Virus record (IMG/VR): IMGVR_UViG_3300046467_000596
Coordinates: 1 to 39,100 of that record
DNA: 39,100 bases
Origin: a virus
Direction: 5' to 3' (one strand)
Every line of letters begins with the position of its first letter. Position 1 is the first letter of the stretch. Shown piece by piece: positions 4,297 through 27,996 of this stretch. The position numbers were made by a program, and so were the translations under genes. The notes under the pieces were generated by a model. The model worked only from the letters and a program-made list of their open reading frames with translations, had not been told where the DNA came from and did not search any database.

Positions 4297-4717
4297 TAAA
4301 ATAAATGCTCAAGTAAAGGGCTTTTATATACAGGATGATGTAATCGTTAAGGCTCTTCGTTATCTTAAGCGAGACGGTAAAGTTTTGTTTAAGCGTATTG
4401 ATACAGGCGAAGAGTATCTTGACGACTACAGGGGTTCTGCTCTTTTTCGTAAGCGCGTATTCATAATAGGAGAAGTTGCTAAGATGGTTGGTAGGGCAGC
4501 AGGTACTATAAGGGACTATGAACGTTCCGGCCTGCTGCCCGCCGCCAACCGCTTTCGATATAGCAATACAGAATATAGATACTATACTTATAACGATGTT
4601 AGAGAGATAGAGTCGTTTTTTAATTCACAAAAAGTCGGCAGGCCGACGAAAAAACGTGTATACTCCCGTACAGACCTGAGCGATAAACTCAGGAAAGCCA
4701 AGAAAGGTATATTATGA
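4271..4717 (+). CDS. MerR-like helix-turn-helix protein
   Basis: 148 aa. Residues about 64-116 read as a MerR-family winged HTH: FIIGEVAKMVGRAAGTIRDYERSG, LLPA, then YRYYTYNDVREIESF, with the RYY..ND wing signature. The N-terminal 60 residues are not recognised. The C-terminal 30 are strongly basic (VGRPTKKRVYSRTD...KLRKAKK). No Cys effector-binding dimerisation arm is present. Probably a DNA-binding regulator of the early or replication genes that follow. Confidence 0.7.
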   Translation: MSELEKLANKINAQVKGFYIQDDVIVKALRYLKRDGKVLFKRIDTGEEYLDDYRGSALFRKRVFIIGEVAKMVGRAAGTIRDYERSGLLPAANRFRYSNTEYRYYTYNDVREIESFFNSQKVGRPTKKRVYSRTDLSDKLRKAKKGIL

Positions 4718-4914
4718 GTAACGAAGACAATCATGTTTGGGTGTCGATTGGCATTACAAAGAATTTAGGTAACTACGAATCAATGCGTTTAGATGCTGGT
4801 GCAAAAATGGCAGGAGATCCGCAAGATGAAAAGTTGTGGAACCAGTTATGGAAAACGGTTGATGAGCAGTTAGAAGCCAAGCTTGCAGAAATTGATAAGG
4901 GACATGCTGGGTGA
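4714..4914 (+). CDS. Conserved-type small phage protein, unknown function
   Basis: 66 aa; its ATG overlaps the previous stop (ATGA). The pattern VSIGITKNLGNYESMRLDAGAKM, a strand-turn-strand followed by a helical tail (LWNQLWKTVDEQLEAKLAEI), resembles short proteins common near replication genes of actinophages. No function can be assigned. Confidence 0.55.
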   Translation: MSNEDNHVWVSIGITKNLGNYESMRLDAGAKMAGDPQDEKLWNQLWKTVDEQLEAKLAEIDKGHAG

Positions 4915-18175: not shown

Positions 18176-18344
18176 ATCACAATGTCCTAGGTGTAACGAA
18201 CAGGGAATTATAGTACACTTTGAGAATCCTGATGAGAGCGCAGAAGACACAATAATTATACCTTGGATTCTTATCGAGAAGATGGTAGCGCAGTATTTGG
18301 ATAAGACTATTGACGATATGATCGATATTGGGAGTTTAGAATGA
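18168..18344 (+). CDS. 58-aa protein with N-terminal CxxC
   Basis: Short ORF from ATG 18168 to TGA 18342-18344, with AAGGAAG upstream. It begins MSESQCPRCNEQG, a zinc-ribbon half-site, and continues with an amphipathic helix (PWILIEKMVAQYLDKTIDDMIDIG). Its stop overlaps the IMPDH-like start (ATGA), filling exactly the gap between two coding genes, which supports it being real. Confidence 0.6.
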   Translation: MSESQCPRCNEQGIIVHFENPDESAEDTIIIPWILIEKMVAQYLDKTIDDMIDIGSLE

Positions 18345-19354
18345 AAGACGAACTGTTTAGTTTTGACGATGTGCTGCTTAAGCCGCAGTATTCTAATGTG
18401 ATGAGTAGGAAAGATGTGGATCTATCTACTTCACTTAATCCTTGGTTAAAGTTGGATATTCCCATTATCGCTGCTAACATGGATACTGTATGTGAACAGG
18501 AGATGGCTACCGCTATCAGCAAACTTGGCGGTATGGGTGTCCTTCACAGGAACCTAGCTATGGGTGATAGGATGCAGAGTGCTCGTATTTTAAACATCAA
18601 TAGTTGCCTTGCAGGTGTTGCTGTTGGAGTGAATGAACTTGACAAGCAGCATATTGAAACTCTCATTCAGTGCGGCGTCAACGCGATTGTTGTAGATGTT
18701 GCTCATGGAGATGCTTTACATGTGTATAATGCCATCATTGAAATCAAATGTTTTTTGGAACGCAATGCTGATCATGTATGTTTGATTGGTGGCAATATAG
18801 CTACTGGCGAAGCCGTAGAGCGCATGGTAAGCGCGGGTGCTGATTGCGTTAAGGTCGGAATTGGACCCGGTGCTGCTTGTTTGACTCGTATCAATACTGG
18901 TGTTGGTGTGCCGCAATTGTCGGCTATTATGGAATGTGCTGCTAGGGCTGATTATCTAGGTGTATCCTGCATTGCTGATGGTGGCATGAAGACACCCGGT
19001 GATGTTGCTAAGGCTATTGCTGCTGGCGCGGATGCTGTCATGCTTGGCGGTATGCTAGCCGGAACAGACGAAGCGCCGGGTGATATTTATACGGATGGTG
19101 ATGGTAAGCGGGTAAAGGGGTATCGTGGTATGGCGTCCAGCGGTGCAGGCTCTTCTTATGTAGAAGGTGCTGAGGGGCATGTGGCTTACAAAGGGCCTGT
19201 GGCTGATGTTATCACAAGTATTAAGCATGGTTTACGTAGTTCCATGTCTTATTCGGGTGCGTTCAATATATCTGAGTTTCATGCTAAGTCGGAGTTTGTT
19301 AGGGTTTCCCCTGCGTCCTTGAGCGAAAATGGTGCTCATGGAACTGTTTTGTGA
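18341..19354 (+). CDS. guaB: IMP dehydrogenase / GMP reductase-family enzyme, CBS-less and flap-less
   Basis: 337 aa TIM-barrel. Start [16 protein letters not shown] and AANMDTV (45-51) are family signatures. The catalytic-Cys loop is [12 protein letters not shown] (C180). [25 protein letters not shown] and YRGMASSGA (261-269) form the phosphate/IMP site. [11 protein letters not shown] resembles IMPDH rather than GMP reductase. There are no CBS domains. Between [10 protein letters not shown] and EGAEG only a few residues remain, so the mobile flap with the Arg-Tyr pair that hydrolyses the covalent XMP intermediate in IMPDH is missing. It is therefore uncertain whether it makes XMP, reduces GMP or does something else. 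Context: purine supply for phage DNA. Confidence 0.75.
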
Positions 19355-25073: not shown

Positions 25074-25385
25074 ATGCTAATGTCAATGTACATTGCTGAT
25101 ACTTCTCCTTATGGGGAAGATTGTGTTTGTGTGGGGGAGGATGATTATTACCCTCGTGCAAAGAAAGAGGCTAATCGTTTCCTTGCTCAAATGCGTAAGC
25201 ATTATGGTGTAGAGCCAGGAAACAGTTATTTGGAGATCAAAAAGAATCCTCATGACTTTGGTACGTATTTGAGTATCGAGTTTCATTATAACCCTGAGAA
25301 TCTAGTAGAAGCTGATTATGGCTTCAACATAGAAGGTGATACAAAGGGTGTTCTCGAAAACTGGGATAAGGAGTTTGCATCTTGA
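25074..25385 (+). CDS. Hypothetical acidic protein
   Basis: 103 aa; ATG 25074 after AGAGAGAG, with a second ATG at 25080. Acidic, with helix AKKEANRFLAQMRKHYGV and strands SYLEIKKN, TYLSIEFHY. No family recognised. TTGA overlap with the next gene. Confidence 0.5.
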   Translation: MLMSMYIADTSPYGEDCVCVGEDDYYPRAKKEANRFLAQMRKHYGVEPGNSYLEIKKNPHDFGTYLSIEFHYNPENLVEADYGFNIEGDTKGVLENWDKEFAS

Positions 25386-25645
25386 ATGAATATGGTGTTG
25401 ACTTCTATGAGTTTCATGAAGCGTTTCATAAGTGTTTGAGTGAGTATGATCCTACTCATAGGAACTACAATAAAGAAATGGTAGTTTGGCGGCAAGGACA
25501 GTTGTTCTTTAATTTGCTGTCAGGTACTAATCCAAGGGTTGCGGAGTTACTCCGTGGCTCAATCATAGATCCATTTTATCGTGATGAGGTTTCAGATAAG
25601 GTTTGGGACCTCGTTATGGATAAGTGGGAAGCGGAGGCTATCTAA
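25382..25645 (+). CDS. Hypothetical protein
   Basis: 87 aa, TTG start sharing TTGA with the previous stop. Helical and aromatic (GVDFYEFHEAFHKCLSEYDP, VWRQGQLFFNLLSGTNPRVAELLRGS). It precedes the GHKL-zincin gene by one base, so the two are probably co-translated. Confidence 0.5.
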   Translation: MNEYGVDFYEFHEAFHKCLSEYDPTHRNYNKEMVVWRQGQLFFNLLSGTNPRVAELLRGSIIDPFYRDEVSDKVWDLVMDKWEAEAI

Positions 25646-25646
25646 T

Positions 25647-27194
25647 ATGCAGTACATTAAGATAACAAATGAAGCAGATTTAGTTCCACGACTTCACTTG
25701 GAACTTCTTGGTGTTTCAACCAAACGAGATAATGATGATACTATTGGTCAGTTTGGTTCTGGCACTAAGTTTGCTCCTATTTATGCTTTGCGGCAGGGAT
25801 GGGAATGGATAAATGTTGGTAATGATAGGCATGGTGGTTACATCATGAAGTATGTCGTTGCTGATAATGAGGGAATCGATGTTGTGAAGTTCTCATATGA
25901 AGATGAGAATGGTAACGTAACAACTAAAGATTCTTCTTATTCAATGGGTGCTGGTGAACTTGGTTGGGATCATCCTTTCCAGATTTTCCGAGAAGCATTT
26001 GCTAATGCTTTGGATGCTCATTATGAGTTTGGCGCTAACTATAGCGTTGAATTGGTAGATAGTGTTGAACCTCCTGAAGAAGGAAAGTTTAGCGTCTATC
26101 TTACAGCAGTAGATGAATTGATCGAGGTTGTTGATAACTTCGATAAGTTCTTTTCGCTGGATCGTAAGCCCCTCTTTGAAGATGATAAGGGCAATAAGAT
26201 CTACGAGAAGTTGACAGGCAAAGAAGGCCCTAGGATTTATCATAAGGGTGTTCTTGTTTATGGCCCAGAACTTGATGGTTCTGATACGCAGTCCATTTTT
26301 GATTATGACTTGACGCGTGTTACTCTAAATGAGGAACGTCGCCTTAAGGATATTTCAACTAATGAGATGTATGCCATTGCTCGTGTTTTCAGCAACAATG
26401 AAAACCACACGCCCGGAGCACTCGTTCCAGTAATCAAAAGTATTGTAGATAAGATTGCTTACAATAGTTTGAGCAGCGCTCATGGTTATTGGGAATGGAA
26501 CTTCTCTTATGCTTGGGCTGGTGGTATGTATGATGAAGAATATGAGGTGGATGGATTTGGTGTAGAGTTTCACCGATATGTCAAAGATGTCATCTTGCCT
26601 AACATCAAGACAGACAGAAACAGAATTGCTTTTGTTGCAGAAGATCTAATTGACTTTGAAGAATTGGATTTGACTTTTGCAGAAAAGCAGGTTCATCCTG
26701 TTCAGGTATCTGCTGGCATGTACAATCTGTTAAATGCTACTGGTGCATCAGAACATATGGATTCTGCTGTAATGGGTGAAGAATTTGATACACCATTTAC
26801 TACATTGAGTGGTGATGATCTCAAGTTCTTTGCTTTTGCTATTGGCTTGGTTGTCAATTATGACACGGACCTTCTTAACTACAAAATTAGGGTTATGAAG
26901 GAACAGAGGAATAACCGCCACATTGATGGTAAAGCTTTGAACATAAGCAGTGATGATAAGGAAACCATCATTTGTGTTAATCAGCGTTTGATTGATCAGA
27001 GAAAGATGGAGCGGATTATTTCTACTTTGGTTCACGAATTGGATCATTGTATTACTGGTGCCAGGGATGGTTCTAGAACTTTCCGTGAAGCTGGTGATAA
27101 GCGTATTGGTAAGTTGTTGCTGAATCATTACTGTGATAAGACGGAGTTGATTCAGATGACGAATGATACAAAGATTGAGTCTGACGATGAGTAA
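25647..27194 (+). CDS. GHKL-type ATPase with permuted-looking motifs joined to a zincin-like HExxH domain
   Basis: 515 aa from ATG 25647; the open frame reaches back to 25581 inside the previous gene. Residues 22-41 (GVSTKR ... TIGQFGSGTKFA) match the G2 lid of Hsp90/GHKL ATPases (compare IGQFGVG of Hsp90). REAFANALDAH (115-125) matches the N-box (E..xNA.DA). In ordinary GHKL proteins the N-box comes first, so the order appears permuted. The middle region contains YDLTRVTLNEERRLKD. The C-terminus has STLVHELDHCITGARDGSRTF (460-480), a zincin-like H-E-x-x-H with a following Asp. ATP-dependent proteolysis or conformational switching is conceivable; substrate unknown. Confidence 0.55.
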   Translation: MQYIKITNEADLVPRLHLELLGVSTKRDNDDTIGQFGSGTKFAPIYALRQGWEWINVGNDRHGGYIMKYVVADNEGIDVVKFSYEDENGNVTTKDSSYSMGAGELGWDHPFQIFREAFANALDAHYEFGANYSVELVDSVEPPEEGKFSVYLTAVDELIEVVDNFDKFFSLDRKPLFEDDKGNKIYEKLTGKEGPRIYHKGVLVYGPELDGSDTQSIFDYDLTRVTLNEERRLKDISTNEMYAIARVFSNNENHTPGALVPVIKSIVDKIAYNSLSSAHGYWEWNFSYAWAGGMYDEEYEVDGFGVEFHRYVKDVILPNIKTDRNRIAFVAEDLIDFEELDLTFAEKQVHPVQVSAGMYNLLNATGASEHMDSAVMGEEFDTPFTTLSGDDLKFFAFAIGLVVNYDTDLLNYKIRVMKEQRNNRHIDGKALNISSDDKETIICVNQRLIDQRKMERIISTLVHELDHCITGARDGSRTFREAGDKRIGKLLLNHYCDKTELIQMTNDTKIESDDE

Positions 27195-27996
27195 TAGTCA
27201 ACCTAAAACAAAAGTATGTAATGATTGCGGCAAGCGCAAGTCAAGAAATAAGTTTGGAGTATCCAAGCGAGCATCTGATGGTATTAGGCAACCATGTAAA
27301 AAATGTCGTGAGCTAGAAACAGAACGAGGTAAGGAAAGGAAACAAGCATACGACAAGCAATACCGCATAGATAACGAAGAAAAGATAAAGAAGGATCAGG
27401 CTCAACGACGTATAGACAATAGAGAGTATTACATAGAGTATGGCAACAAACGTCGTAAGATGCCAGGACATAAAGAAGCGATGAGTGTGTATCACAAAGC
27501 TTATTATGTGGAAAATCAAGAAGCGATTAAAGCAAAAGTCAATAAGCATAGAGTAGAAAATCGTGAAGACATAAATCAAAAAAGTCGTGAGCGACAAGCA
27601 AATGAGACACCAAAGCAAAGAAAAGATAGACTTGCTTATCATCGTAAACGTTATGCTGAAACAGATAAAACAGCGCCAGAATACAAAGCAATGAAATCAT
27701 ATCACTCAAGCATAAGACGTATGAGAGTGAGGAATGTTGAATCTGATGGACATACTATTCCTGAACTTCACGAATATTGGAGAAGCAAAGGAATAGATCC
27801 AAAATATTGTACCTATTGCGATAAGTATTATCGCAAATGGCAGTCTTCAGTAGGAGATCATGTAATACCTATTACTAAAGGTGGTGGTGATGTAATGGAA
27901 AACATCGTTCCATGCTGTGGACCATGTAATAACAGTAAATTCAATAGGATTCTTTATGTAGAATGGATTCCTCCTAATGAAAGGTTAGCAGCATGA
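27187..27996 (+). CDS. HNH endonuclease with N-terminal zinc finger and basic repeats
   Basis: 269 aa from ATG 27187, overlapping the previous stop by 8 nt. The N-terminal finger is C11-x2-C14 ... C37-x2-C40. Residues 45-165 contain loosely repeated Y.K.YR.DN.E.I...-type modules rich in Lys/Arg. The C-terminal HNH is CTYC (208-211), GDHVIPITKGGGD (223-235), N about 238, and CCGPCNNSK, with the paired Cys binding structural zinc. A free-standing homing-type nuclease. Confidence 0.82.
   Translation: MSNSQPKTKVCNDCGKRKSRNKFGVSKRASDGIRQPCKKCRELETERGKERKQAYDKQYRIDNEEKIKKDQAQRRIDNREYYIEYGNKRRKMPGHKEAMSVYHKAYYVENQEAIKAKVNKHRVENREDINQKSRERQANETPKQRKDRLAYHRKRYAETDKTAPEYKAMKSYHSSIRRMRVRNVESDGHTIPELHEYWRSKGIDPKYCTYCDKYYRKWQSSVGDHVIPITKGGGDVMENIVPCCGPCNNSKFNRILYVEWIPPNERLAA

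Follow-up and report, generated by a model that had tools for sequence, protein, structure and literature searches.

A phage protein combining a probably permuted GHKL/Bergerat-type ATPase module with a predicted minigluzincin/SprT-like domain

Phage T4 rIIA is a GHKL protein with the canonical order of motifs. The rIIA orthologues have been described as joining a GHKL domain to a variable C-terminus in counter-defence, and phage SprT-like and ArdC-like zincins as probably targeting host proteins (PMC7824862). Wss1 and Spartan, which act on DNA-crosslinked proteins, have been grouped with the minigluzincins (PMC4559962). Our searches of the open-licence literature for permuted, including circularly permuted, GHKL/Bergerat domains and for GHKL-zincin fusions turned up no earlier account of either, and in the open-licence papers that mention both 'circular permutation' and GHKL, the permutation concerns other domains.

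Here, we analysed a 39,100-nucleotide stretch of viral DNA (IMG/VR record IMGVR_UViG_3300046467_000596, hereafter the window), and within it an ORF of 515 amino acids plus stop whose features are collected in Table 1. An in-frame GTG is present upstream at 25581; translation from this codon is unlikely, because it would overlap the conserved upstream gene and because a GGAGG lies immediately 5' of the ATG at 25647. The ORF translation places the lid motif, the N-box and the HELDH motif (residues 463-467) with its following Asp exactly where a preliminary description of this gene had put them. The upstream gene shows the pattern 'WRQGQ..FNLL....RVAE.LRG...DPF..D' and has no match in Pfam or PHROG. 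An N-box located in this upstream gene, or ahead of the lid, was considered and rejected, none being found. The actinophage setting assumed in the preliminary description was also discarded, as nothing points to such an origin; the GC content of the window is about 0.41.

Table 1. Coordinates of the features discussed in the text (nucleotide positions of the window).
Feature	Position	Strand	Basis or remark
87-aa gene, upstream	25382..25645	+	Also present close to the GHKL gene in L001, L002, L115 and L116, of the window's subfamily
Protein with predicted permuted GHKL ATPase and minigluzincin/SprT-like domain	25647..27194	+	515 aa, whole gene; ORF, relatives, PHROG 8203
Strand and G1-equivalent, residues 3-14, N8-x-A-x-L	25653..25688	+	Ungapped correspondence of YuA-clade N-x-G-x-I with MTATph1 DDGPG; model strand 3-9
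ATP-lid motif G2, TIGQFGSGTK, residues 32-41	25740..25769	+	Invariant residues; low pLDDT
Putative transposed N-box, REAFANALDAH, residues 115-125	25989..26021	+	Out-of-order match to canonical N-box profile; model helix 110-128
Second (transducer-like) domain, residues about 184-235	26196..26351	+	Aligns in order with the canonical family's profile
Predicted minigluzincin/SprT-like domain, residues about 413-495	26883..27131	+	Foldseek; Pfam SprT-like E=0.0028, below cut-off
Presumed metal site, residues 463-474, HELDHCITGARD (HExxH-x6-D)	27033..27068	+	His463, Glu464, His467, Asp474
HNH endonuclease gene, downstream, outside the module, variable slot	27163..27996	+	Pfam HNH 8e-8

The residues Ile33, Gly34, Phe36, Gly37, Gly39 and Lys41 of the lid and Arg115, Glu116, Asn120 and Asp123 of the N-box show no substitution in any of the aligned relatives (71/71). 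Glu229 and Arg231 of the second domain are invariant in the same alignment (Arg231 in 71/71), and Glu464, His467 and Asp474 near the C-terminus are identical in 70/71. Glu116 is presumed to be the catalytic residue and Asn120 the Mg ligand of the transposed N-box, while Arg231 is proposed as the gamma-phosphate sensor. Using 20,000 shuffles of the window protein, we found GxxGxGxK, ExxxNxxD and HExxH jointly at a frequency of about 1.5e-4; ExxxNxxD alone occurred in 22% of the shuffled copies, and the presence of the motifs alone would therefore not suffice. Conservation across the aligned sequences is a stronger argument than the shuffle statistics, and it decides the question for the lid and the N-box.

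The preliminary description had also noticed that the lid precedes the N-box, the reverse of the usual GHKL order, and this observation holds when the window protein is set against a non-permuted sister family, PHROG 6077. Only two PHROG families match the window protein, namely PHROG 8203, of unknown function (E=1e-14 over residues 1-234), and PHROG 6077 (6.6e-6). The lid stands ahead of the N-box in 90/90 permuted members examined, and the N-box comes first in 76/84 canonical members, the other eight (including one fragment) lacking the strict pattern. The PHROG 6077 proteins start with 'YV..W...EA.REL.QNAID', followed by G1 and then by 'IGxFGEGxK', and one of them reaches 27.0 bits against HATPase_c_3, above the Pfam cut-off of 25. 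The protein of Moorella phage MTATph1, which has the normal order, carries an intact DDGPG.

Profile comparisons gave the same picture. With hhalign, the families of PHROG 8203 and PHROG 6077 align collinearly (E=5.9e-24) with the canonical N-box omitted and a gap opposite the permuted one, and a second, out-of-order profile-profile alignment joins the two N-boxes (E=8.8e-5); repeated with larger sets, the comparison yielded 2.8e-14 for the collinear part and 7e-4 for the out-of-order N-box. A 30-column canonical N-box profile maps to columns 82-110 of the permuted family with a score of 38.5 against a shuffled maximum of 18.6, and the reciprocal match scores 42.0 against 19.9; among 200 column shuffles per direction, none reached the real score either way. 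With sliding segments, the N-box columns map behind the lid and later segments keep their order, the second domain being collinear between the two families. In a tree of the core, the permuted and canonical orders fall on opposite sides of one branch (support 100/98), so that a single transposition suffices; this tree calls for caution, its root being arbitrary, its branches long and the N-box segment having been removed before alignment.

Could the permutation be a chance resemblance, with the true N-box elsewhere or absent and REAFANALDAH an unrelated helix? The frequency of ExxxNxxD in shuffled sequences would allow it, but the match extends over 28-30 columns, including a Trp and flanking residues, at scores far above the shuffled maxima, the motif is invariant in the aligned relatives, and no member has an N-box before the lid. 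We consider such a coincidence extremely improbable. By contrast, we have little doubt that the GHKL module is permuted. Sequences and models together indicate that the N-box helix was probably transposed from ahead of G1 and the lid to behind them, and the model suggests that it travelled with its following strand. The permuted order is the one that we take to be derived, from general knowledge of GHKL proteins. Since the normal succession of N-box, G1 and G2 is absent, the window protein is best filed as a putative permuted variant of the GHKL/Bergerat ATPases rather than as an ordinary member.

Relatives of the window protein occur in IMG/VR at 85, 69, 55 and 51% identity. A tblastn search with the window protein returned six phage relatives, all remote, two close ones in IMG/VR and none on plasmids; a scan with the subfamily alignment returned three further loci at 51-55% identity, L116 and L117 being near-copies. 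The family as a whole is widespread: the PHROG 8203 member of phage AH02 matched 73 phage records (Pseudomonas YuA-like, Bordetella, Stenotrophomonas, Synechococcus, Brevundimonas and other phages), and PHROG 8203 is found at at least 275 IMG/VR loci as well as at 14 loci in bacterial genomes. These proteins mostly go by the label 'hypothetical protein', a few records using 'HATPase' or 'hydrolase, metallopeptidase' instead. PHROG 6077, the sister family, includes members from Serratia phage ChuuTotoro, Vibrio phage 1.122.A and PaMx11, some of them labelled 'histidine kinase-like ATPase'; 114 phage records have a match to the ChuuTotoro protein, and one PHROG 6077 clade is represented at 126 IMG/VR loci. 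Single-protein viral scans with the ChuuTotoro and MTATph1 proteins as queries found no relatives.

The AlphaFold model of the window protein, computed from a 71-sequence alignment, has a pLDDT of 83.9 and a pTM of 0.70. It comprises a strand (3-9), a helix (15-19), a low-confidence lid, a helix (39-49) and four strands, then the N-box helix (110-128) and two strands (132-137 and 147-153); pLDDT is 53-57 in the blocks of residues 21-40, as for a mobile lid. Compared with the PDB by Foldseek, the model matches Hsp90 (E=1.2e-4, prob 0.96) and MORC3/4 (prob 0.4-0.7). Among viral models (BFVD), a 543-aa uncultured phage protein is matched at 6.5e-35, and the matches to the canonical family include proteins of Erwinia phage pEp_SNUABM_01 (7e-9) and Pseudoalteromonas phage H101 (2e-6). 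A second AlphaFold model, that of the YuA-clade protein of L018 (pLDDT 92.9), matches Hsp90 and GyrB weakly (E 0.018-0.5, prob 0.23-0.33). Part of this weakness is to be expected of an aligner that preserves the order of the sequence. A permutation would lower such sequential scores, yet the low scores also limit how firmly a Bergerat fold can be asserted. The structure prediction suggested in the preliminary description is thus moderately favourable for the window protein and weak for the L018 model. The profile of the canonical family matched only GHKL proteins in the PDB (MORC2, endoplasmin, HtpG, TRAP1 and Mlh1; E=0.06-2.3), and PDB sequence searches returned chance matches only, whether the query was the window protein or the profile of the permuted family. 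Taking sequence and model together, residues 1 to about 230 appear to comprise an ATPase module of GHKL/Bergerat type, akin to MORC and Hsp90, followed by its second domain. The geometry of the pocket and the biochemical function are inferred.

The zincin-like nature of the C-terminus, also put forward in the preliminary description, is supported by a zincin-type fold in both independent models, and a minigluzincin-type fold is very likely. The window model matches selecase and jannalysin (E 0.018-0.21, prob 0.91-1.0, TM about 0.5 on the target), with a minigluzincin Foldseek prob of 0.95-1.0 for most chains, and several phage SprT-like proteases in BFVD (prob 0.97-0.99); the L018 model matches selecase and abylysin with prob up to 1.0. 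In Pfam, the window protein has no HATPase match, and its SprT-like match reaches 18.0 bits against a curated cut-off of 25.6. Asp474, at +7 after the second His, is a candidate third zinc ligand.

Within the permuted family, an [H/E]ExxH motif is present in 86/90 members, and Asp follows at +7 in all 86 of these. The first residue of the motif is Glu in 81/86 and His in the remaining five, all from the window's branch, where HExxH is kept in L001, L002, L115 and L116; MaInes, R26L, LR500 and L032 have no C-terminal motif. Metalloprotease activity is plausible in the window's branch, and, because most permuted relatives carry EExxH, catalysis may be limited to this branch. EExxH in most relatives argues against peptidase activity as the common function of the family. 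In the YuA-clade (e.g., L018-L114), the change of the first His to Glu is nearly fixed while Glu, His and Asp(+7) are kept, and EExxH there possibly reflects a modified metal site and not mere decay. HExxH-x6-D also stands at the C-terminal end of two proteins of normal order, those of MTATph1 (HETLHKYSGARD) and Exiguobacterium phage EalM-132 (HETIHRVTGAND). The protein that the preliminary description called unusual is not unique: it belongs to a large, mostly unannotated phage family, and its combination of GHKL and HExxH has these normal-order counterparts. In the tree as drawn, proteins with HExxH branch off close to the base on either side, which is consistent, under an arbitrary root, with an ancestral HExxH domain whose motif later turned into EExxH in the large clade of permuted proteins and which was lost in most canonical members.

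The G1 motif DxGxG is absent: Asn8, found in 71/71 aligned relatives (NxAxL in the window, NxGxI in the relatives), sits where ordinary GHKL proteins carry the adenine-binding Asp. In Hsp90, an Asp-to-Asn change abolishes ATP binding. With Asn in place of this Asp in the whole permuted family, nucleotide binding could be altered or lost, and the invariant Asn8 is the chief sign that nucleotides may be used in an uncommon way. The canonical sister family is itself variable at this column, with Asp, Ser, Asn or other residues. The Asn, the prevalence of EExxH and the four members devoid of the C-terminal motif would all fit a permuted scaffold without enzymatic activity, structural or nucleotide-sensing, joined to a non-peptidase metal- or peptide-binding domain and serving as a partner-binding inhibitor or adaptor. 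This reading seems unlikely to us, since Glu116, Asn120, the lid glycines, Lys41 and Arg231 remain invariant across very divergent phages, which suggests an active ATPase, and since HExxH is retained in the window's branch, MTATph1 and EalM-132.

The immediate neighbours of the gene in the window are the conserved 87-aa gene, small unknown genes and the HNH gene. A terminase gene lies ~2.7 kb upstream, and genes for helicase, primase and polymerase are found farther left. In a replication region, a 337-aa protein (18341-19354) matches PHROG 9582 'dehydrogenase' at 4e-102. The slot 3' of the GHKL gene is occupied by unrelated genes in the relatives, an HNH_3 gene in L001 (4517-5506), a 330-aa gene in L002 (4523-5515) and a short ORF in L115 (about 4551-4750), and in phage AH02 an HNH gene overlaps the start of the GHKL homologue; homing-type endonucleases appear to insert preferentially into the downstream slot. 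In the YuA-like clades, primase (12 loci), Mu Gam-like (8), exonuclease VIII (7) and ERF-like/phrog_7838 (6) genes lie near the gene. These neighbours point rather to a role in replication or recombination, a context that rests on other clades and not on the window's own immediate neighbours.

They also bear on the anti-host effector suggested in the preliminary description, a claim that found no support. Such an effector, or a counter-defence protein, would cleave or remodel a host or defence protein under ATP control, in a role like that of T4 rIIA or of the phage zincins. The part played by rIIA orthologues, the probable host targets of phage zincins and the label 'RIIA lysis inhibitor' carried by canonical relatives in two records would fit. 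However, the window protein has no PADLOC match and no match to an annotated anti-defence family, and the conserved neighbours in other clades are replication and recombination genes; we hold this alternative to be quite improbable, more so than the inactive scaffold. Identity with rIIA itself was rejected, given the two PHROG matches of the window protein. In L118 (Vibrio phage 1.122.A, canonical order), the ATPase segment weakly matches the PADLOC defence protein TmtA (7e-8), which suggests that related GHKL domains exist in defence candidates.

We slightly favour a reading in which a clamp or chaperone module, gated by ATP, is coupled to a metalloprotease domain of the SprT-like type. ATP-Mg would be held between the lid and the transposed N-box, with Glu116 as base and Asn120 as Mg ligand, and Arg231 from the second domain would sense the gamma-phosphate. 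Lid closure would lead to closure of a dimer or clamp, and the ATP cycle would present or expose a substrate protein to the metalloprotease domain. By analogy with SprT, Spartan and Wss1, the likeliest setting would be the processing of proteins bound to phage DNA as it replicates or recombines. For the YuA-like branch, with Glu in first place, the fold would probably be kept, perhaps with an altered metal site and without classical peptidase chemistry. An ATP-gated protease in the window's branch is somewhat less certain, at a little under even chances, and nucleoprotein as its substrate is a tentative proposal. Equally tentative is the complete picture, in which a permuted, Asn-bearing Bergerat ATPase gates a SprT-like protease on protein-DNA complexes in phage replication, perhaps with an altered nucleotide preference. 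If true, a single polypeptide would constitute an ATP-switched protease of DNA-protein crosslinks or nucleoprotein.

The permuted and ordinary forms are sister phage families with a common downstream domain, which allows a direct comparison of the order of a core ATPase motif and bench tests of the transposition. Moreover, the family is common in phages, with hundreds of loci, and nearly always labelled 'hypothetical', a label probably owed in part to motif-based models built on the usual order; the window protein, with no HATPase match in Pfam, is a case in point. The SprT-like fusion suggests ATP-gated proteolysis as a concrete hypothesis for this widespread family.

Compared with known systems, the window protein is closest to PHROG 8203, the family of Pseudomonas phage YuA gp29, with which it shares the permuted order, the second domain and the position of the C-terminal domain; the window's branch differs by its length (507-522 aa versus about 390-400 aa in YuA-type proteins, at ~20% identity) and by HExxH in place of EExxH. 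PHROG 6077 is homologous to it in the lid/G1 segment, the second domain and the sequence of the N-box, whereas the order in that family is N-box-G1-lid and most examined members are without the metalloprotease domain. Like the window protein, MTATph1 WPA89660 and EalM-132 AYP68649 unite a GHKL module and a C-terminal HExxH-x6-D domain in one protein, but both have the canonical order, the former with DDGPG and Glu for the N-box Asn (REVLQEMFD), the latter with a deviating N-box (KEFIQNAVF) and lid (PGFYGEG). T4 rIIA resembles it as a phage GHKL ATPase with an additional C-terminal part (PMC7824862), whereas no sequence family match is detectable between them. MORC, Hsp90 and sacsin share the IGxFGxGxK lid after GxSxK, the ExxxNxxD N-box and the second domain, and the window protein departs from them in the order of the elements, the Asn for Asp in G1 and the C-terminal protease-like domain. 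Finally, the minigluzincins selecase, jannalysin and abylysin, together with SprT and Wss1, have the same predicted fold and HExxH helix; the window protein is set apart from them by its GHKL fusion, by the conserved Asp at +7 after the second His and by a Pfam SprT-like score below cut-off.
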